DNA from: an uncultured Pseudomonadota bacterium
Lineage (GTDB): Bacteria; Myxococcota_A; UBA796; SXON01
Assembly: GCA_903844155.1 (NCBI GenBank)
Contig: CAIMSU010000086.1
Location: 1-35,174, forward strand
Length of the DNA stretch: 35,174 nucleotides
Direction of reading: 5' to 3'
Shown: positions 7,040 to 29,716 of the stretch, in pieces
Layout: the number at the start of each line of letters is the position of its first letter
Numbering within the stretch: the first letter of the stretch is position 1
Notes under the pieces: model-generated
Told to the model about the DNA's origin: nothing
Databases searched by the model: none
What the model saw: the letters and a program-made list of their open reading frames with translations, nothing else
Translations under genes and position numbers: made by a program

Positions 7040-9406
7040 CTATCGCACCGCCCACGTCGACGGCAGCGCGGCGTAGGTCTCGCCGTCCCGTAGCGTCACG
7101 ATCGAGGCGCCGGACTGCAACGATCCCGACAGCGTCGGCGTTACCGGCAGGCTCGCGGACCACAGGCCGTTCTGGAGCGTGACGCCCTTGAGATGGACGG
7201 CGCCCTCCTCGGTCGTCGCCGTTCCCGTGCCAGAATTGGCCGCCAACGCCGCGGTCAAAGCGGCTGCATCGCCCATGTCCACGCCGGCTGGCAGCGCGAT
7301 GTCGATGTCCGCGGTCTCACCGGTCGGCCCGGCGATGTCGACGCGCAAGGTGGTCTTGACGCCGAGGCGCGGGTTCTGCGGCGCGGTGACGTGCAGATCG
7401 AGCCCGTGCGGCGCGCTCGCGGTCCACGGGACCCAGCTCGTCGCGACGGCCGTGAACGCGAGCCCCGGCACCGCAGGCGTGGCCTCGACGCGCAACTCAT
7501 GGGCTGCACCGGGCACATTCAACACGACCGGCGCGTGCTTCTGCTTCGGGTCGAGCGCTCCCTCGCCGATCGGCTTGCCGTCCGCGAACAACGCGATCTT
7601 CACGCTGTCGGGGATGTCCCCGCCCATCGCGGACGCCAGCGCCGGTAGCGCGGTGAGCCCCGCCCAGCCGCCGCCAAAGCCCGCTTCGGGCGACCAGCGG
7701 CCGAGAATACCGGTGGCGAGATCCGCGACGGGACCCGGGTTGCCCTTCGCGCGTGAGAGGCCCAGGATGGCGACCGCGGTGGCCTCGGCGGTGGATGAGC
7801 CGAGCGTCCGTGCCGACGTGCCGCCGAGCGTGGGATCGAGGCGCAGGCTGCCATCCGGGTTGGTGACGAGCGCGTCGGTGACGGTCTTTGCGAGCTTCGC
7901 GCCAAGCTCCGCGTCGAGCCCGTCCGCGCCGCCGGAGGCGAGGGCCCACGCGGCCACGTAGGGGTCCGTCAGCCGGTCGGCGTAGCGCTCCAGCGCGCCG
8001 GTGTAGCGTAGGCGTGCGCCCTTGATTCGAGCCGGTTCGTCGCCGGTTTTGCTCTCTGTCCCCTGCAGCGCCCAGAGGCACCGCGCGCTGGCGACGAGCT
8101 GGTCGTCAAGGCCGACCCCTGAGCCGAGCGACCAGAGGCCATCGGGCTGCTGGGCCTGGAGGACGACGTCCCGCATGCGCTCGGCCAGATGCGCGTCAAG
8201 GCCGGCGGGGTCCTCGGTTGCGCCCAACCCGGCCAAGGCGAGCGCGGCTGTGGCGACGCCCGCAGGGTCCGAGCCTGCCGAGCGCGTGTCCCGGATCAGC
8301 CGTTGCAAGGCGACAAGTCCGAGGTTCCGGGCGCTGTCCGCCGGGACCTCGTTGTCCGCGACCAGCACGCCCGCCTCCAGACTCACCCGGAACGCGTAGG
8401 CCGCAGAAGCGACGTCCCCGCCGCGGTTTCCCGCGAGGTCGACCTCCGAGCGCAACAGGGACAGCTCGCCCGGGAAAACGGTGACGCTCACGCTGCCGTC
8501 GACCGAATCCCCGACGGCGTCGAACGAAACCGTTCGGGCGCCCGCCAATGAGCCCGCTCGCGACTGCGTGATCGGCCGGCCGACGGGCGTGACCGTCACC
8601 GACTTTCGCACGCTGTCGATCGCCTCGGCGCCGCTGCCCAACGTCGCGGCGATCTCCAGCTTGCCCGCGTGGTTTGCGGTCGTGTGCACCGTCGAAGCGC
8701 TCGATCCCCACGGCGCAACGTTCACCGCCCCGCCGCCCTGCCCGGCCCCGCCGGTGACCGTCACCACGAGCGCGCTCTTGAGCGCGTCCGCCGTCTGGTT
8801 CACCACCTGGATCGGCATTTCGACGACGTCGCCGACGCGCAATTTCAGCGGTGCCGCGACGTCCACGTAGGCCGGCAGCGTCGAGAGGAACGTCTGCACG
8901 GCGCCACCCTGTGAGCCCTGCCGAGTCTGCCCGAGCGCGAGGATCCGCCATGTCGTCAGCGTGTCCGGCACGGTGAATTGCACCTTCGCCATGCCATCCT
9001 TCGCGTCTGTCTGAACGAGCGGCTGCCACAGGAAGCTCTCGGGGAACCAGGCGCGCACGGCCGGGGCCTCCGGGCCGGCGTCTGCGGCCTTGTCCTTCTT
9101 CTCGGCGTGGAATTTCCCGCCAACCATCCCCTCCTTGGGCATCGCGGCCAGCTCCCCGTCCATCGCGATCCCGGCGTTCCCGCCCATCGCCGCCGCCCCG
9201 GCAGGCGGTGCGGGAGGCATGGCCTCGGACTTGTCCATGGCGGGGCTGGCGGGCACCGGCTCGTCGACGGCGCGCCCATCCTCCCGGACCGTCTGATCCT
9301 CCTGCTGGTTTTTGCCGACGGTGGGGGCGGCTTGTTCGAGCTTGCTGCACGAGCCGACGAGCGTGAGGCCGCAGAGCGCGAGGATCGAGTAATTCACGGC
9401 GTTCAT
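7040..9406 (-). CDS. Alpha-2-macroglobulin C-terminal half, lipoprotein, no thioester
   Basis: A 788-residue lipoprotein (lipobox LVGSC, Cys20). After a Pro/Ala/Met-rich linker (25-112) it has the hallmark of the A2M family domain: AWFPESFLWQPLV (119-131) and VPDTLTTWRILALGQ (146-160). A CUB-like/macroglobulin segment follows, then an alpha/alpha-toroid-like region (about 320-600, with QQPDGLWSLGSG) and a C-terminal beta domain. The thioester motif (CxEQ) expected where the toroid begins is absent; residues 322-335 read DLAGNRGGDVASAA. It therefore resembles thioester-less bacterial A2Ms of the YfaS kind, which are thought to act as periplasmic protease traps or structural envelope proteins. 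The ATG overlaps the stop of the N-terminal-half gene by 4 bp, so the two products are probably made together and assemble. Confidence 0.85.
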   Translation of the reverse strand: MNAVNYSILALCGLTLVGSCSKLEQAAPTVGKNQQEDQTVREDGRAVDEPVPASPAMDKSEAMPPAPPAGAAAMGGNAGIAMDGELAAMPKEGMVGGKFHAEKKDKAADAGPEAPAVRAWFPESFLWQPLVQTDAKDGMAKVQFTVPDTLTTWRILALGQTRQGSQGGAVQTFLSTLPAYVDVAAPLKLRVGDVVEMPIQVVNQTADALKSALVVTVTGGAGQGGGAVNVAPWGSSASTVHTTANHAGKLEIAATLGSGAEAIDSVRKSVTVTPVGRPITQSRAGSLAGARTVSFDAVGDSVDGSVSVTVFPGELSLLRSEVDLAGNRGGDVASAAYAFRVSLEAGVLVADNEVPADSARNLGLVALQRLIRDTRSAGSDPAGVATAALALAGLGATEDPAGLDAHLAERMRDVVLQAQQPDGLWSLGSGVGLDDQLVASARCLWALQGTESKTGDEPARIKGARLRYTGALERYADRLTDPYVAAWALASGGADGLDAELGAKLAKTVTDALVTNPDGSLRLDPTLGGTSARTLGSSTAEATAVAILGLSRAKGNPGPVADLATGILGRWSPEAGFGGGWAGLTALPALASAMGGDIPDSVKIALFADGKPIGEGALDPKQKHAPVVLNVPGAAHELRVEATPAVPGLAFTAVATSWVPWTASAPHGLDLHVTAPQNPRLGVKTTLRVDIAGPTGETADIDIALPAGVDMGDAAALTAALAANSGTGTATTEEGAVHLKGVTLQNGLWSASLPVTPTLSGSLQSGASIVTLRDGETYAALPSTWAVR

Positions 9407-12400
9407 GGGCTCTCCGAAGCAACGTAGGCAGGCCAGTTTTCGATGTCCTCGGGGAGGAGTGCGGCGTCCGAGACGAGCACGCGCGGGTCGGTGAAGGCGA
9501 GCAGATCCTGCGGCAAGACCTTGAGGTGTAGCGTGCGACCAAAGGGGTCGGTGGCGGGGTGGGCGACGAGCGCGGCCTCCCAGATCGAGACCATGATCTT
9601 CGGCGTCATCTGGATGCCGTCCTTGGAGTCCTGCCGCTGCTTTTCCCAGGCGCGAACGCCGTCCTTCACCGCCGGGTAGAAGGTGTAGAACGCGTCGGCG
9701 ACGCCGTAGTCCGCGTCGATGGTCTCGCGCGACTCGGTCGACACGCGCGTGGCGCCCGGGGCGGCGGCGGGGAGCGAGGAGACGCGGAGGATCGTGGCGG
9801 CAGCGGCGTTGTCGCCCGCGATCTGGCCGGTCTGCAGGGCGCGCGCATCGAGCTCGCCGAACGCGGGCGTGGCGGTCTCGGCGGTTACGGCGAGGCGGGC
9901 GAGGCTGTCGGGGCCGTCGAGGGTGGCGAGGGTGCCGAGGGTCTGGTCGACACCGGAGAGCGTGACGCCGGCGGCTACCGGTGTTGTCCCCGCCATGCTG
10001 GTGAGCGTGAGGTTTGCGACATCACCGGGTTTGTACTTCGCTTTGTCGAGCTCCATGCCGAGCGCCAGCTTGGCGTCATCCTGCACGTACGCCACTGCCA
10101 TCGCGCCGTTCCAGCTCACGTGCACAAAGCCGCGGGCGTCCTTCGGGATCGTGACGGTGCCCTTGCGTTTTTTCGGGTCGAAGTCGAATTTCTGCAAGTC
10201 GCGGTCGCCCGATTGCAGGACCATCTTGTCGGGGAACTCGCCGGAGAAGTTCGGACCGCGCAAGGCGGAGAGTTCGAGGGTGTCGCCAGGTTTGACGAGG
10301 ATCTCGGAGAAGCGGAGGCGCAGATCGGGCAGCGAGCCTGGGTGCAGGCGCAGCGTGGTGGTCCCGACGGGCGCTGAGTCCTTGTCGCCGGTGAGCGCGG
10401 CGACCTCGAAGGCATAGCCGGGCCAGGTGGTGGGCTGGGGCTTGTCGTAGCCGGGGACGGACGGAAAGTTTAGGTTCACCGTCAGGATTCCGGAGCCGTC
10501 GCCGGTAGCGGGGTCCGAGAGCGTGAGCGAGCCAAGCGCCCGTGCCACGCAGGCCTGGACACCGGGGTTGGCGGTCCCCGCGTCGGTTTGAAGTTGGACG
10601 GGGCGTAGATCCACCGCTTTGGAGCCCGTGTGGGTGAACCACACCCAGGCCTCGCCGAGATCCTCGACGTTGTTGTCGAGGCCCGCGGCGCAAGACCGCG
10701 CGCGCCTGAGGGCGTCGCTGGTCAGCGTGTCGACGTCGCTGGAGCGGTCGTCCCCGCTGGCGTTCTCGGCTGAGGCCGTCAGCCACGGTGTTTGCGGGCC
10801 GCCGAGGGAGAGCGTGAACTTCCACAGCCGGTCGTGCCCGTCGCCTGGCGCTTGCCCGCCGAGCGCGTCCGCGACACACGCCCCGACGAGCGCATCCTCG
10901 CTTCCCGGGCTGGTTTTCACGACATGACCCGACCCGTCGACGAGGACCGCGGCCGTTACCGTCAACGCGTTGGCCCCCTCGACCAGCGCCCCGCACGACG
11001 TCGCCTTCGTCGCCCAGCGATCCAGCAGCGCCCGCGTCGTCAATTCGGGGGATTCGCCCGCGATCAGATCGGTGACGTCGTTGACGGTGAGCGTCGGCGT
11101 CGTCCTCAGCACGGGCGGCCGCCACGGCAGCGCCGGGACGACGACCGTGACGGGCTCGCCCGGGTCCATCTGGTACCGTGCGACGCCGTCGGCATCGGTC
11201 TTCTCGACGGTCGCATGGGCTTCCGCGTCCCCCGTCCGCCAGAGCTTGACCGTGCTGTTCCGCAGCGGGACCCCGTCCGGCGTCGTCGCGCGAACGAAGA
11301 TGCGGTTGTTCGCCGAGGGCACGACCCCGTCTGCCAGCTCCGTCACCGCTGAGACCGCGACCCGGTCCTGCGAATAGAGCAGGCTCGCGCTGCCGTTTGC
11401 GACGTCGCCCGTCTCGTCCCGCGCCGAAATCTGCACCCCGAGCCGCCCGCGCCCGACGAGGTCGCCCGGCACGCTCCCCAGCTTGATCGCGACCTTTCCC
11501 TCCGCGTCGGTCATGAGCGACTGCGGTGCCAGCCACGCAGGAGGCACGGGCCAGGCGGCGGTCCCGTCCTCCGCCACGGTCCCCTGATCGTAGAAGCTGA
11601 CGTCCACCGGTGCGTTCTTGACGGGCGCGCCGGATGTGTAGCGGACCGTCGTGTCGATCTTCGGCGTGTCCCCGAGGGTGTACCAGGGCTTGTCGGCCTT
11701 CGCCTCGACGGTGAAGCGCGGCAGTTGGAACGGATGGACGGGGACCGTACGGGTATCGGCGTTGGCGCCCGTCTTGTAGGTGACCGTCCAGTCGCCGGAC
11801 TCCGCGAGCGCGTCGATGGGGATGTTCCCGTCGGCCACGCCGAACGGGCCCGTCTTCGTCTTCTGCTCCAGCAGCGTCTGCCCGTTGTTGTCGGTGACGA
11901 CCCAGGTGCCCGGCCGATCTTCGAGCGGCGTGAGGTCCTTGTCGGAGAGGACGACGGCGCGGAACTTGATCGTCTGGCCGGGCTTGTAGAGCGGCGAGTC
12001 GGTGAGGACGTGAACGCGCGCGGGCACGTAAAGCGGAAGGGTCAGCTCGGTTTTCGCGACGCCGGAGGGGGAGTCCAGCGAGACGTCCAGCTTCCAGTCG
12101 CCGTCGGGGCCGTCGGGCAGCGTGATCGTCGCCCACTGGTCAAAATCGTCGGTCGAATCCCAGCCATTCTTGGTCGTGACGACGTGGGACTGCCCAAGGG
12201 GGTCGATCGCGGTGAGCGTGGGGCTGAACCGTCGCACCGGCGTTTGCCCGACGTTGTTGTACCGGTCCGCGTACCAGCCGGTCACGCCGACGTTGATGAC
12301 GCCCTCGTCCTTTCGTCCCACGTCGCTCACCTGGGCGTGGGCGGCAGGCACGACCCGCCCGGCCGGGCACTCGTCGAGGAGGACCCCGTCCATCGCCCAG

Positions 12401-12546
12401 GCGCTCCAGCAGGGCCCGAAGATCCCGGCGCAGGCGAGCACCGCGACGCACGGAACGCCGATCGCGACGAGCAGAACGGAGGAGAGGATGGGAGTACGCG
12501 AGCCGCGCGTGAAGAGCGGGCTGACGGGCTTGGTTGCGGTGGCCAT
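9403..12546 (-). CDS. Alpha-2-macroglobulin N-terminal half (MG domains) with inserted repeat module
   Basis: A 1047-residue envelope protein. Residues 20-39 form a hydrophobic segment ending VLAC, either a lipobox (Cys39) or a membrane anchor, after an unusually long N-region. Macroglobulin-type domains follow: MG1-like (80-175), a clear MG2 (VLTDSPLYKPGQTIKFRAVV, 180-199) and MG3 (275-400). The C-terminal part (735-930) again has MG-type strands (VKPGDTLELSALRG; YKPGDVANLTLTS). Between them, residues about 510-700 hold two similar units with paired cysteines (SCGALV..GACVADALG; SCAAGL..QACVARALG), which resemble the TonB-C/AgmX-like modules common in myxobacteria. The remaining A2M part is encoded by the next gene, so the usual single polypeptide of roughly 1500-1900 residues is split in two. 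Confidence 0.8.
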   Translation of the reverse strand: MATATKPVSPLFTRGSRTPILSSVLLVAIGVPCVAVLACAGIFGPCWSAWAMDGVLLDECPAGRVVPAAHAQVSDVGRKDEGVINVGVTGWYADRYNNVGQTPVRRFSPTLTAIDPLGQSHVVTTKNGWDSTDDFDQWATITLPDGPDGDWKLDVSLDSPSGVAKTELTLPLYVPARVHVLTDSPLYKPGQTIKFRAVVLSDKDLTPLEDRPGTWVVTDNNGQTLLEQKTKTGPFGVADGNIPIDALAESGDWTVTYKTGANADTRTVPVHPFQLPRFTVEAKADKPWYTLGDTPKIDTTVRYTSGAPVKNAPVDVSFYDQGTVAEDGTAAWPVPPAWLAPQSLMTDAEGKVAIKLGSVPGDLVGRGRLGVQISARDETGDVANGSASLLYSQDRVAVSAVTELADGVVPSANNRIFVRATTPDGVPLRNSTVKLWRTGDAEAHATVEKTDADGVARYQMDPGEPVTVVVPALPWRPPVLRTTPTLTVNDVTDLIAGESPELTTRALLDRWATKATSCGALVEGANALTVTAAVLVDGSGHVVKTSPGSEDALVGACVADALGGQAPGDGHDRLWKFTLSLGGPQTPWLTASAENASGDDRSSDVDTLTSDALRRARSCAAGLDNNVEDLGEAWVWFTHTGSKAVDLRPVQLQTDAGTANPGVQACVARALGSLTLSDPATGDGSGILTVNLNFPSVPGYDKPQPTTWPGYAFEVAALTGDKDSAPVGTTTLRLHPGSLPDLRLRFSEILVKPGDTLELSALRGPNFSGEFPDKMVLQSGDRDLQKFDFDPKKRKGTVTIPKDARGFVHVSWNGAMAVAYVQDDAKLALGMELDKAKYKPGDVANLTLTSMAGTTPVAAGVTLSGVDQTLGTLATLDGPDSLARLAVTAETATPAFGELDARALQTGQIAGDNAAAATILRVSSLPAAAPGATRVSTESRETIDADYGVADAFYTFYPAVKDGVRAWEKQRQDSKDGIQMTPKIMVSIWEAALVAHPATDPFGRTLHLKVLPQDLLAFTDPRVLVSDAALLPEDIENWPAYVASESP

Positions 12547-24635: not shown

Positions 24636-25877
24636 TCAATCCGACCGCAGCGCCTCGACCGGATCGAGCTGGGACGCGCGCCACGCCGGGTAGATCCCGA
24701 ACGTCAGCCCGATCACGGACGAGAAGACGACGCTCAAGATCAGCGACCACGCCTCGACCTGGAACGGCCAGACCGTCACCCACTTCGTGAGCGCCCACGA
24801 CCCGCCTCCGAGCGTCAGGAGCGCAAGCGCAAGGCCGACAAACGCGCCGCAGAGCGTGATCATCACGGTCTCGGAGATGAACTGCTGCAGGATGTCCGCG
24901 CGCGTGGCGCCAACCGCGCGCCGCAGGCCGATCTCGCGCGTGCGCTCCACGACGGTCACCAGCATGATGTTCATGATGTTGATGCCGCCGACGATCATCG
25001 AGAAGAACGTGGTCAGGTACAGCAACGCCTTGATCGTCTTCATGATCAGGCTCTCGGTGGAACTATCGTTCTCCACACCGGCGAATTCCCAGCTCTTCAC
25101 GGAGCGGTTGCGAAACAGGATCGCGTCGAGCACGCTGCGCGTGGCCAGCGCATAGTCCTTGATCAACCCCTTGAACTCCGACGGCGGCGCGACCTTGACC
25201 ACGATGTTGGACGGCCGGCGGGAGGGGTCGAAGTTGAGCTGGTACGTGCGCTGCGGAAAGAGCACGCGCTGGTTCCAGCTCCACGGCCCGCCTGGGCCCA
25301 TGTCCGCCTTCGCGGCCAGGATCCCGACGACGGTATACGGCTGTCCCTCCACGCGGACCTGGTCGCCCACCACCGGCAGCCCCTCGAACGCCTTTGACCC
25401 CAGGATGACGACCTTGCGCGCCTCGTCAAGCTCACTCTGGGTGAACTCCCGGCCTTTCTCCACGCTCAGGGTGTAGACCCCGAGGGTCTCTGGCCCGACG
25501 CCGATGGTGAACGGGTCGTAGTCCTTCTCCTTGAATCGGGCGTTCCGGTCGCGCATGCCGTAGGTCGCGGTGACGGACGTCCCGGACGACAGCAGCGTGG
25601 AGTCGGCGATCGCCTCCTGGTCGCCGTGCCGCAGCCGCTCGGCGTCCGGGTTGTTCTGCATCACCTCCCAGTCGTTGGACACGGTGATGACGTCGTCGCC
25701 CGTCGCCTCCGCGCTCGTCGACCGCAGGATGCCCTGCCCGACCTCCAGCAGGCTCGCCATGACCACGAGGCTCCACACCCCCACGACGATGCCCGAAACC
25801 GTCAGCAAGAACCGGACTTTTTGCGTCCGGAACAGGTCCAGCGTGGCCCGGAGCGAGGCGATGATGGAGCCGATCAT
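24636..25877 (-). CDS. MacB/FtsX-type ABC permease, second copy
   Basis: A 413-residue inner-membrane permease without its own ATPase domain. TM1 (about 22-42) is followed by a large periplasmic MacB-type core domain (45-270) and an FtsX domain with three membrane segments. The coupling region NIMNIMLVTVVERTREIGLR, followed by RAVGATRADILQQF, is diagnostic. The protein ends with the typical PAWRASQLDPVEALRSD. ATG 25877 was chosen because it starts the family sequence and overlaps the stop of the first permease gene by 4 bp. It differs clearly from the first permease, which suggests a heterodimer comparable to LolC/LolE or YknZ-like arrangements. Confidence 0.9.
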   Translation of the reverse strand: MIGSIIASLRATLDLFRTQKVRFLLTVSGIVVGVWSLVVMASLLEVGQGILRSTSAEATGDDVITVSNDWEVMQNNPDAERLRHGDQEAIADSTLLSSGTSVTATYGMRDRNARFKEKDYDPFTIGVGPETLGVYTLSVEKGREFTQSELDEARKVVILGSKAFEGLPVVGDQVRVEGQPYTVVGILAAKADMGPGGPWSWNQRVLFPQRTYQLNFDPSRRPSNIVVKVAPPSEFKGLIKDYALATRSVLDAILFRNRSVKSWEFAGVENDSSTESLIMKTIKALLYLTTFFSMIVGGINIMNIMLVTVVERTREIGLRRAVGATRADILQQFISETVMITLCGAFVGLALALLTLGGGSWALTKWVTVWPFQVEAWSLILSVVFSSVIGLTFGIYPAWRASQLDPVEALRSD

Positions 25878-27112
25878 ACGCGCCTCAAGCACTCGACAAC
25901 GTCGAGTCGGGCGGCGCGCCAGGCCGGGACGGCACCAAAAAGCAGGCCGATGCCGCTGGTCACGCCCAGCGACATCGCGACGCCAAGCGTGCTGATGGTC
26001 CCCTGCCAGGTGCTCTGGACATGCTGGATCCCGAGGTTCGTGGCCACGGTTACCGCGAGTCCGGCGACAACGCCGACCACCCCGCCCGTCAGCGACAGCG
26101 TGCACGCCTCGATCAGGAACTGCCAGAGGATGTCCGAGCGCGAGGCGCCAAGCGCCTTGCGGATGCCGATCTCCCGGACCCGCTCCGTCACCGAGACCAG
26201 CATGATGTTCATGACGCCGATGCCGCCGGCGAACAGGCTGATGCTGGCGATGAGCGCCACGATCATGTCGAGCACGCGGAAGAACGTGTAGAACTGGTTG
26301 AGGAAGCCGGAGAAGTCGATGGACTGAAAATCCTGGACGCCGTTGTGGTCATTCAGCAGCGTCGCGTTGCCCATGGCCACGCTCGTGGCGTTGTACTGGG
26401 CGTCCGTGGTGAGGGCGACGAAGAACCGGGCTTGCTCGGGCCTTCCGTCGCGCTTCTCGGCGGTGAGCTGGGGGATGAAGACGCTGGTCTCCCAGGAGAA
26501 CCCAAAATGGATCCCCATCATCTCGCGGCGCTCCAGCACGCCCGCCACGACGTAGGGGCGCTGGCCGACGAAGATCGTCTGGCCGACGACGTCGTCGAGG
26601 GTCTTGTCCGGGAAGAGCGACGTGGCGAGGGGCTCGGTCAGCACTGCGACGCGGTGGCGCTCCAGCCCGTCCTCGTCCGTCAGCGCGCGCCCGTGCGCGA
26701 CCTTCCAGTTCAGGATGCCGAGCACGCCGCTGCCGACGCCAACGATGTCGGACTTCTGGCGATTGTCGGCGACCGCCCAGATGGACTCGGTGCCGTAGGT
26801 CGACTCGCCGGCGACGGACGCGATGTACGGGACGGCCTTGAGCGCCGCCAGATCGGCGTCCGTGAAGCCACGGTCGTACCGTGCCTTGTCGCGGGCGGAC
26901 GGCGCAACGTCGTCATTCGGGATCCACAGCACCATCCGCGCGCCGCCGATCTGCTCGATGGCCGCCGACAGCGTCTTCTGGCCGGACTGCGCGAGCGAGA
27001 GCATCACGACGATGGAGAACGCCCCGATCGTCACCGAAAGCATCGTCAGCACCGTGCGGAACAGGTTTCCGCGCAGCGTGCGTAGGGCGAGGAGCGCGGT
27101 CTCGATGATCAC
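25874..27112 (-). CDS. MacB/FtsX-type ABC permease, first copy
   Basis: A 412-residue permease with the same plan as its neighbour: TM1 (about 17-40, FRTVLTMLSVTIGAFSIVV), a periplasmic domain (45-270) and a C-terminal FtsX domain containing MNIMLVSVTERVREIGIRKA and LGASRSDILWQFLIEA. It ends with VPAWRAARLDVVECLRRV. It starts with GTG at 27112, with GAAGG (27120-27124 on the complementary strand) seven bases upstream. It lies 13 bp after the adaptor gene. Such permeases use mechanotransmission: ATP hydrolysis by a separate subunit moves the periplasmic domain to push a substrate through a TolC-type duct or extract a lipoprotein. Confidence 0.9.
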   Translation of the reverse strand: MIIETALLALRTLRGNLFRTVLTMLSVTIGAFSIVVMLSLAQSGQKTLSAAIEQIGGARMVLWIPNDDVAPSARDKARYDRGFTDADLAALKAVPYIASVAGESTYGTESIWAVADNRQKSDIVGVGSGVLGILNWKVAHGRALTDEDGLERHRVAVLTEPLATSLFPDKTLDDVVGQTIFVGQRPYVVAGVLERREMMGIHFGFSWETSVFIPQLTAEKRDGRPEQARFFVALTTDAQYNATSVAMGNATLLNDHNGVQDFQSIDFSGFLNQFYTFFRVLDMIVALIASISLFAGGIGVMNIMLVSVTERVREIGIRKALGASRSDILWQFLIEACTLSLTGGVVGVVAGLAVTVATNLGIQHVQSTWQGTISTLGVAMSLGVTSGIGLLFGAVPAWRAARLDVVECLRRV

Positions 27113-27125
27113 GTCGGGGCCTTCA

Positions 27126-28409
27126 TCAATCCATCTTCGCGCTCATGTCCTTCACCTCGGCCTCTGCGTAGAACTCGTCGCCCTCGTGCAGGCCGCCCGT
27201 GACCTCGACCTCGCGATCGCTGCGGTGCCCCACGGTGATCTGCACCTTCTCCTTGCCTTTCGCGTCAGCCGCGACCGCCTTCTCCGCAGTCGTCTTGTCC
27301 GCGAGCGCCTTCGGGTCCATCGGCTCGCCGACGGGCGCTGGCGCGACCTCCGCCACCTTGTCGGCCCCGCCCGCGGCTGTCGCCGCGTCGTCCGCCTTCT
27401 TCTTGTCGGCGTCGACCTCTGCCTTCGGCTTCACCAGGTAGACGTAGGATTTTCCCTTGTCCTCGAACACCATCTCGGCCGGCAGCTTGACCACGTTCGG
27501 GAACGTGCCGACGTCGATGCGCACCTCAGCCGTCATCCCCGGCTTGATGTTGACCTTGGCCTTGGACGGGTCAACCTCGACTTTTACCGTGAAGACGTCG
27601 ATGCCACGCGTGAGATCGGTGTGTCCGGCGGCCGCGATCTGGCTGACGACGCCCTCGACTTCCTCGCCCGGGTACGCGTCGAGCAGGATGCGCGCGGTCT
27701 GCTTCTCCTTGACCTTGGCGACGTCGACCTGGTTCAGGTCGATCTCGAGGAGCAACGTGTCCATCTGCGCGATCGTGAGCTGGGGGACGCCGTTGACGGT
27801 GGCCGTGATGCCCGCCGTGACGACCTCACCGACCTGCACGTTTCGGACGATGACGACGCCGTCGATGGGTGCCGTGATCTTCGTGTAGCTGAGCTGATCC
27901 TGTGCAGCCTGGAGCTGCACCTGCTGGCTTTCGATGTTGATCTTCGCCAGCTCCACCTCGCGCCGGGCCACGTCGTACTCGGCCGCGGAGATCCCGCGCG
28001 TCGCCAACGCCGCTTCCTTGCGCTGCCGGTCAACCTCGGCGTTCTCGGCCTGCAGTTGCGCCTGTTTGAGCGCCACGCGCGCGAGGGCGACGTTGCGCGC
28101 GTACTCGGTGTCGAGGATCTCGTAGAGCAGATCCCCCTTTTTCACCGCCTGCCCCTCCTTCACGTACACCGCGAGCACCTCGCCCGAGACCTTGGACTTG
28201 ATGTCGACGTTGAAGCTCGGCGTGATCTTGCCGGCCTCCGAGACCACGTCGGTGAGATCGCCACGGGTGACCGTGCGGATCAGGTTCTGGTCGAGCTTTT
28301 CGTCGCCGCCGCCGCCGATGCCGCTGCAGGCGAGGACGGAGACGAGGAGGACGAGCGCTGCGGGGAGCGCCGCGATGGAGGTCGGGCGCCGATGGGTGGC
28401 GGTCGTCAT
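27126..28409 (-). CDS. MacA-like periplasmic adaptor lipoprotein
   Basis: A 427-residue membrane-fusion (adaptor) protein that links an inner-membrane permease to a TolC-type channel. The signal peptide ends VSVLAC (Cys28), so it is a lipoprotein. The lipoyl halves (SGEVLAVYVKEGQAVKKGD, 75-93, and KITAPIDGVVIVRNVQVGEVV, 177-197) flank a coiled-coil hairpin (101-172). A beta-barrel domain (215-305) and a membrane-proximal domain follow. An Ala/Lys/Asp-rich segment of about 58 residues (330-387) interrupts the membrane-proximal domain and is not usual for MacA. Its ATG overlaps the stop of the TolC-like gene by 4 bp. Confidence 0.9.
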   Translation of the reverse strand: MTTATHRRPTSIAALPAALVLLVSVLACSGIGGGGDEKLDQNLIRTVTRGDLTDVVSEAGKITPSFNVDIKSKVSGEVLAVYVKEGQAVKKGDLLYEILDTEYARNVALARVALKQAQLQAENAEVDRQRKEAALATRGISAAEYDVARREVELAKINIESQQVQLQAAQDQLSYTKITAPIDGVVIVRNVQVGEVVTAGITATVNGVPQLTIAQMDTLLLEIDLNQVDVAKVKEKQTARILLDAYPGEEVEGVVSQIAAAGHTDLTRGIDVFTVKVEVDPSKAKVNIKPGMTAEVRIDVGTFPNVVKLPAEMVFEDKGKSYVYLVKPKAEVDADKKKADDAATAAGGADKVAEVAPAPVGEPMDPKALADKTTAEKAVAADAKGKEKVQITVGHRSDREVEVTGGLHEGDEFYAEAEVKDMSAKMD

Positions 28410-29716
28410 GGCGTTCCTGCAGGTTGAATCACGTCAGTTCCGAGTAGCCACCGGAGATCGCACTCCGCAGTGGCGAGCTGCACGCGCAGGCTGGCGCCCT
28501 GGGTGCGGGCCGAGCGAAAAGCCGCTTGCGCGTTGAACAAGTCGAGGATTGCCGCCGAGCCCTGGCCGTAGAGGCCCTGGACGATCTGCAGGTTGTCGCG
28601 GGCGAGCGCGACCTGCGCGTCCACGAGCGGGGCGCGCTCACGAAGCTGGGCGACGTTGGTCGCGGCCTGCCGCAGATCGGCCGCAAGCTGCGCTTTTTCG
28701 CTGTCCGTGCCCCTGTCGACCTGCTCCGCGCGCAGCCGCGCCTCCGCGACGGCGTCCCGCACCTTCCAGAGATTGAAGGGGTTCCAGGTGAGCTGAAGCC
28801 CGACGCTGGCGGTGAGATCGGGGCCGAGGCTGTCGGCCGTCAGCGGCGTGCCCGTGACGCCCGTGCCCGAGGCGGCAGCGCTCGCCGTCCCGGTCAAGCC
28901 GATCTGGGGCAGGGCCGCGCTCTGTGCGGTGCGGACGGCGTCGTCGGCCTCCCGCGCCTCCAGCGCCTGCCGCTTCAATTCCGGTCGCGCGGCGATGGTC
29001 GCCTCGTCCGCGCGCACGGGATCGGCGGAGGGCGCGGGCGGATCGTCCGTGAGCGTGATGGGCCCGCCGTCCAGGTGGAGCAGGCGGATCAGCTCCTCGT
29101 CGGCCTCGGCGAGCGCGGCCTTGTCCTCAACCAGCGCCTCCTGCTGGCTGTAGAGGTCGACCTTGGATCGGTTCACGTCGATCCCCGCCGCCAACCCCGC
29201 GTTCGCCTTGGCGACGATGACGTCGAGCGACTGCTGCGTCAGGTCCAGGCCCTCCTGCGCCGCGGCGATCTGCAGCTCGTAGCCCTTGATGTTCCAGTAT
29301 GCCGTGTACGTCGCCCTGACGAGTGATCGCGCGCTGATCGTCTGGTCCAACGCGGCGATGTCGTTGGCGGCGTCCGCCGAGTCGATCGCCGCGCGGTAGG
29401 CGCCGCCCGCCCAGATCGGCACGCCGACCGTGGCCGTGCCACCCCAGTTGGCGTCCGCGCCCGTGTAGCCGTCCTGCTTCCAGGGCTTGGTGACCCCGAG
29501 ATCCCCGCCGCCCGTCACAGCAAGCTCGGCGGTGAACCGGTCGAGTCGGGCCCGGCGTGCGTCGATGGCCGCGATGGTCTGGCCGAGCTTCGCGCTCGCG
29601 AGATCCGGATTTCGCGCCACCACCAGCGCCAGGGCGTCTGCGAGCGAGAGCGCCTGCGGATCGGCGGCGAGCGCGGGCGAAACGGCGAGGGCCGAGGCGA
29701 GCAGGACACCGATCAT
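28406..29716 (-). CDS. TolC-like outer-membrane efflux channel
   Basis: A 436-residue protein with a cleavable signal peptide ending SPALAADP (about residue 18). It has the two-fold repeated helical pattern of the outer-membrane efflux family: LSLADALALVVARNPDLASA (24-43) opens repeat one, and the same type of helix (AEARLRAEQVDRGTDSEK region) recurs in the second half with LQIVQGLYGQGSAAILDLFN. These proteins form trimers with a periplasmic helical barrel docking on the adaptor. The length fits a minimal TolC. The gene lies between the ATPase and adaptor genes, with 4-bp overlaps on both sides. Confidence 0.9.
   Translation of the reverse strand: MIGVLLASALAVSPALAADPQALSLADALALVVARNPDLASAKLGQTIAAIDARRARLDRFTAELAVTGGGDLGVTKPWKQDGYTGADANWGGTATVGVPIWAGGAYRAAIDSADAANDIAALDQTISARSLVRATYTAYWNIKGYELQIAAAQEGLDLTQQSLDVIVAKANAGLAAGIDVNRSKVDLYSQQEALVEDKAALAEADEELIRLLHLDGGPITLTDDPPAPSADPVRADEATIAARPELKRQALEAREADDAVRTAQSAALPQIGLTGTASAAASGTGVTGTPLTADSLGPDLTASVGLQLTWNPFNLWKVRDAVAEARLRAEQVDRGTDSEKAQLAADLRQAATNVAQLRERAPLVDAQVALARDNLQIVQGLYGQGSAAILDLFNAQAAFRSARTQGASLRVQLATAECDLRWLLGTDVIQPAGTP

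Follow-up and report, generated by a model that had tools for sequence, protein, structure and literature searches.

A split alpha-2-macroglobulin in one order of Myxococcota: an apparent protease trap turned two-part envelope protein

In animal macroglobulins and complement C3, the protease cut falls near the bait/linker site. Complement proteins are each one gene product cut by a protease, the chains of which stay linked by disulfides, and the C3 counterpart of the bacterial macroglobulin domain MG8 is MG6, whose halves lie on different chains. In the Escherichia coli alpha-2-macroglobulin (A2M), the bait region sits within one macroglobulin (MG) domain, MG8 in the bacterial numbering (PMC4498604). 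In human A2M, continuity of the bait region keeps the protein in the native state: the segment after the bait plugs a channel of MG2, MG3, and LNK, with R732, F735, and D897 taking part in this plug-in-channel trigger, and a break in the bait lets the plug retract (PMC9352918). We analyzed the whole of contig CAIMSU010000086.1 (35,174 nucleotides, hereafter the window), which belongs to a genome of 8.1 Mb in 375 contigs and carries an A2M divided between two overlapping genes, A and B. We give a probability of roughly 60% to the reading, based on sequences and predicted structures, that A and B are obligate subunits of a single particle resembling A2M and complement C3, acting as a two-chain binding scaffold of the envelope and not as a trap. 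The literature searched, the coverage of which was incomplete, contained no account of a bacterial A2M divided in this way.

An earlier reading of the same DNA from its letters alone (the sequence-only reading) had correctly located both genes, which lie on the minus strand, and their ATGA overlap of 4 nucleotides. It had also assigned MG2 to the chain of 1,047 residues, and the A2M domain with a toroid-like part to that of 788 residues, in agreement with Pfam and AlphaFold2 (AF2).

9403..12546, minus strand: gene A (1047 aa), with a transmembrane anchor at the N-terminus, MG domains as far as the first half of animal MG6 (bacterial MG8), a 210-residue insert, and a helical tail at the C-terminus
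7040..9406, minus strand: gene B, 788-aa lipoprotein; second half of MG6, MG7, CUB, TED-like toroid, and C-terminal MG domain
9403..9406, minus strand: ATGA, in which the stop codon of A overlaps the start codon of B (junction reading)

A ribosome-binding site of the GGAG type for B lies within the 3' end of A. Pfam searches identified MG2 in chain A (E = 8e-19) and the A2M domain PF00207 in chain B (E = 2e-15), and the two domains recurred in 32/32 A chains and 32/32 B chains, respectively. By this domain content, the pair is a member of the alpha-2-macroglobulin superfamily.

Homologous regions were taken from relatives, mostly from draft assemblies, and a junction was counted when A was readable to its end and B from its start. 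The search covered Myxococcota and, beyond that phylum, a single pattern scan in which B was run against genome contigs. At all 38 readable junctions, including that of the window and representing six families of one Myxococcota order, A and B formed two genes whose relative frame was always the same, with overlaps of 4 nucleotides (ATGA, GTGA, or TTGA) or of 1 nucleotide (TGATG or TAATG). Two of these loci (L056 and L114) have an internal stop later in B. Gene A was present in 39 of the 63 genomes of the order, and every complete A gene that was opened had B behind it. Such a recurrent layout is neither chance nor assembly error. Together with the lipobox of B, it upholds the earlier view that the split is not a simple frameshift, and it provides the same split pair in related genomes that had been proposed as a check. 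The contrary case then envisaged, continuous homologs and a sequencing error in the window, did not hold: the nearest single chains are continuous, but the split recurs at every readable junction. Outside the order, no match to B was better than 8.5e-61 (284 genomes of the phylum searched), and the matches that were opened were single chains, except for one cut by a contig end. Some homologs have open frames of 1,585, 1,805, and 2,206 codons, which we considered as natural A-B fusions and rejected, since in these, too, the frame of A differs from that of B and the long frames are open by chance in high-GC DNA.

In a maximum-likelihood tree (quick mode) built from the half equivalent to B, the 38 split rows and 18 single-chain rows fell on the two sides of one branch with a Shimodaira-Hasegawa-like approximate likelihood ratio test (SH-aLRT) value of 100. 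Inside the split clade, families largely stay together. These sequence relationships fit a gene break that arose once in this order and was then inherited mostly by vertical descent. Both chains are under purifying selection (ratio of nonsynonymous to synonymous substitution rates, dN/dS, of 0.12-0.39 overall), and so are the last 150 codons of A (0.11-0.34 for the A tail).

In human A2M, the B profile aligned from residue 721 of the precursor, where the bait region ends, and in the alpha chains of complement C5 and C3 it aligned from directly past the anaphylatoxin. In Foldseek, the B model likewise matched the C3/C5 alpha chains best among PDB entries (E = 3e-28), and the A model matched C4, A2ML1, CD109, and the C3/C4 beta chains. 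The end of the Pfam domain A2M_BRD was detected in 17 of the 32 A chains, where it reaches a VDQ motif at about residue 868, and it ends at the same place in single-chain relatives. The tail of A that follows is conserved to its last residues, with W1038 invariant. The Pfam TED model matched none of the B chains.

9943..10089, minus strand: end of A2M_BRD as far as the VDQ motif, corresponding to the first half of MG6; A residues 820-868 (Pfam)
9406..9942, minus strand: helical tail replacing the LNK region; A residues 869-1047, 179 residues (AF2, conservation)
8774..9055, minus strand: second half of MG6/A2M domain PF00207 with alpha'NT plug residues; B residues 118-211 (Pfam, alignment)
7628..8467, minus strand: all-helical TED-type toroid between the CUB halves; B residues 314-593 (AF2; Foldseek to C3/C5 alpha chains)

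Judged from these alignments, the split falls in the bait/linker region between the halves of MG6 (bacterial MG8), the first half being in A and the second in B. Since neither chain then holds a whole MG6, assembly of A with B is expected, and we consider it very likely mainly for this reason.

This chain layout resembles that of complement, although the protein is not complement. As in C3, C4, and C5, there are two chains with their boundary in the MG6 linker, B covering the alpha chain and A the beta chain. Unlike complement, the pair is made from two genes and has no thioester; B has a disordered tether instead of an anaphylatoxin, lacks C345C, and ends after its C-terminal MG domain. The lipobox cysteine is moreover the sole conserved cysteine of B, none being invariant in its body. 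The pair thus offers a bacterial parallel of the two-chain layout of complement and raises the question of what purpose an A2M scaffold serves other than trapping.

The thioester motif CxEQ was found in none of the 32 B chains, nor in the A chain of the window, and in all 18 single-chain relatives examined (17 CFEQ and one CLEQ); the absence noticed in the window is confirmed at the aligned position. A continuous bait region is also absent, as the gene boundary lies at that site at all 38 junctions. In sequence terms, the pair is without these defining features of protease-trapping A2Ms, and the position of the split at the bait/linker site is what makes the loss of trap chemistry matter. The residues of the plug and channel were nevertheless strictly conserved. 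In all 32 B chains, R118, F121, and D264 are unchanged; by alignment, they correspond to R732, F735, and D897 of human A2M. On the side of A, the linker between MG2 and MG3 (FxLPRF, residues 273-278), which is channel forming in animal A2M, is conserved, with F273, L275, and P276 of the motif kept in 30, 32, and 32 of the 32 chains. As the superfamily as a whole shares these residues, they are evidence of an intact scaffold but not of a trigger that still works. With its trigger site broken at the gene level, its thioester lost, and its plug and channel residues retained, the pair amounts to a natural experiment on how macroglobulins work.

8396..8431, minus strand: position of the missing thioester, B residues 326-337 (profile alignment, GGDVASAA here versus GCFEQTSS in relatives)
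11758..12018, minus strand: MG2 domain; A residues 177-263 (Pfam, conservation)

The type II protein MagD (YfaS) is alike in having no CxEQ and in being periplasmic and membrane associated. It differs in being encoded by a single gene, within the six-gene mag operon, in its anchoring through MagB, and in having no split gene, lipobox, or cysteine-rich insert. MagD is partly processed in vivo to a shorter form of 100 kDa (PMC5764988). Type I YfhM, associated with PBP1c, belongs to the same superfamily and has a copy in the genome of the window (L057), but it is a single chain with a thioester and a bait region and forms a separate, distant lineage in the tree. The nearest relatives found were the single-chain GCFEQ macroglobulins of other Myxococcota, which align with the MG portion of A and with almost the whole of B; unlike the pair, they are continuous, keep the thioester, and lack the 210-residue insert. 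Two of them (L089 and L091) scored above the cut-off for A2M_recep and TED_complement, Pfam models of the animal type, and so may be informative about how animal A2M and complement arose.

Lipobox and transmembrane calls were made with simple sequence rules. A single N-terminal helix was present in 32/32 A chains. The N-terminus of B in the window (MNAVNYSILALCGLTLVGSC) has a lipobox with Cys20, and a lipobox-like [AGS]C motif was found in 29 of the 32 B chains, the rest having transmembrane helices instead: one helix in each of the tandem B genes of L046 and seven in L051. The claim that both chains are separately exported, B by a lipobox of its own, therefore holds for B; A appears to be held by a transmembrane helix and not simply exported. 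The first 112 residues of B are predicted to be disordered, and the tether within them evolves fast (dN/dS of 0.28-1.36 versus 0.11-0.30 for the body of B).

12418..12483, minus strand: transmembrane helix/signal anchor, A residues 22-43, the helix itself being called at 24-42 (hydropathy, AF2, conservation)
12367-12411, minus strand: invariant Cys46 and Cys60 of A, after the helix (conservation)
9347..9406, minus strand: lipoprotein signal with lipobox VGSC; B residues 1-20 (sequence rules)
9071..9346, minus strand: disordered, fast-evolving tether in the bait-region position; B residues 21-112, about 95 residues (AF2 predicted local distance difference test, pLDDT, below 50)
L051:3698-6961, plus strand: 1088-aa B chain with a seven-helix N-terminal membrane domain instead of a lipobox

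Seven thioester-bearing single-chain relatives have 5-6 predicted transmembrane helices between the MG6 halves (L089, L090, and L104 of f15; L094, L095, L097, and L098 of f16 and f46), in at least two unrelated-looking versions. No homology was detectable between the groups of these bait-site inserts, nor between them and the seven-helix start of L051, the derivation of which from such an insert was therefore rejected. The anchors may thus be independent, and membrane attachment at the former bait site seems, from these sequences, to recur.

The insert of A was found only in split A chains. It carries four invariant cysteines (518, 557, 619, and 666), two per repeat, and is weakly similar to the C-terminal (TonB_C-like) domains of AgmX/PglI, with one weak NCBIfam match. 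We did not retain this identity, which is only suggestive: hhalign gave probabilities of 68% and 25% for the two repeats versus <1% for control regions, a weak comparison because 3 of the 13 AgmX rows are misread stretches.

10459..11091, minus strand: insert, A residues 486-696; two beta-alpha-beta-beta-alpha-beta repeats (AF2, conservation)

Taken as a two-chain envelope scaffold, the pair would work as follows. The two chains would fold in the periplasm, build MG6 jointly from their halves, and remain associated without a conserved interchain disulfide. The helix of A would anchor it in the inner membrane, and B would be attached through its lipid (through helices in a few relatives), after which comes the disordered tether, directly upstream of the plug segment. 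The bait break that triggers the human trap would here be permanent, with the free end tied to the membrane, which would make one-shot covalent trapping of proteases impossible. The most likely role would be that of a constitutively two-chain binding scaffold of the periplasm or envelope, in which the double cysteine-containing insert of A would serve as an extra module for interactions. On this view, an ancient protease trap seems to have become an envelope protein that is permanently in two parts. Several points weigh against this reading. The scaffold role is inferred by elimination, and MagD, an A2M without thioester, can still trap protease (PMC5764988), so the pair may yet inhibit proteases by other means. 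The Foldseek TM-scores were modest (0.2-0.45), as can be expected of flexible multidomain chains. The B-type genes of L116 and L055 have no adjacent A, and L046 has two B genes for one A, so strict 1:1 pairing is not universal.

L046:5531-10236, minus strand: one A followed by two tandem B genes, each beginning with a transmembrane helix and lacking a lipobox
L116:3826-6283, plus strand: orphan B-type gene with one N-terminal helix; no A found in the fetched stretch

A variant of the two-subunit arrangement, in which A sits in the inner and B in the outer membrane so that the particle bridges the periplasm, is possible but tentative. In enteric bacteria, an Asp at position +2 retains lipoproteins in the inner membrane. 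None of the B chains with a lipobox has this residue, and A has its single N-terminal helix, both of which speak for such a bridge; the sorting rule may however not hold in these bacteria, and the B chains of L046, L051, L111, and L116 appear to be helix anchored and hence in the inner membrane.

It is rather unlikely that the pair is a noncovalent inhibitor like MagD, a two-chain type II A2M still caging proteases with the tether of B as bait. Disorder and fast evolution of the tether are what a bait would be expected to show, plug and channel residues are preserved, and MagD, without a thioester, retains TEV protease after bait cleavage (PMC5764988). Against this, the chain is discontinuous before any protease acts, and it is bait continuity that holds human A2M in its native form (PMC9352918); moreover, no conserved set of partner genes accompanies the pair.

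More speculative, and improbable on present grounds, is that the membrane anchor of B replaces bait continuity, the free end keeping the plug in the channel of A until a cut in the tether or strain on the envelope releases it; the pair would then be a sensor of envelope damage and not a trap. If this were true, the unrelated-looking anchors (lipobox, one helix, seven helices, and inserts of five to six helices in two kinds) would be convergent solutions.

That A and B are independent proteins which no longer associate is very improbable: each has its own export or anchor signal and some B genes are orphan or tandem, but each chain holds just part of MG6, the overlap is kept at all 38 junctions, and B stands behind every complete A gene that was opened. 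A sequencing error, a pseudogene, or a programmed frameshift giving one chain can be dismissed, for although the overlap is a mere 4 nucleotides and single-chain relatives exist, the split is repeated in many independent assemblies, B has its own ribosome-binding site and lipobox, selection purifies both chains, and in L053 the frame of B is open just 4 codons upstream of its start.

The two-chain scaffold, which we favor, has no conserved operon partners, and its neighbors differ between families. In the window, the pair is flanked by genes for an Rce1-like protease and MurB, without an adjacent PBP1c gene. Conserved neighbors are limited to the family of the window, with MurB downstream and an aldehyde-dehydrogenase-like gene upstream. 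The type I A2M of the same genome lies beside a PBP1c-like gene.

L057:6150-14132, minus strand: type I A2M, 1883 aa, with CIEQ, beside a PBP1c-like gene, in the genome of the window

Elsewhere in the window (25874-29716, minus strand), genes for a MacB/FtsX-like permease, an HlyD-like protein, and an outer membrane efflux protein stand in a row and look like an ordinary tripartite efflux operon.
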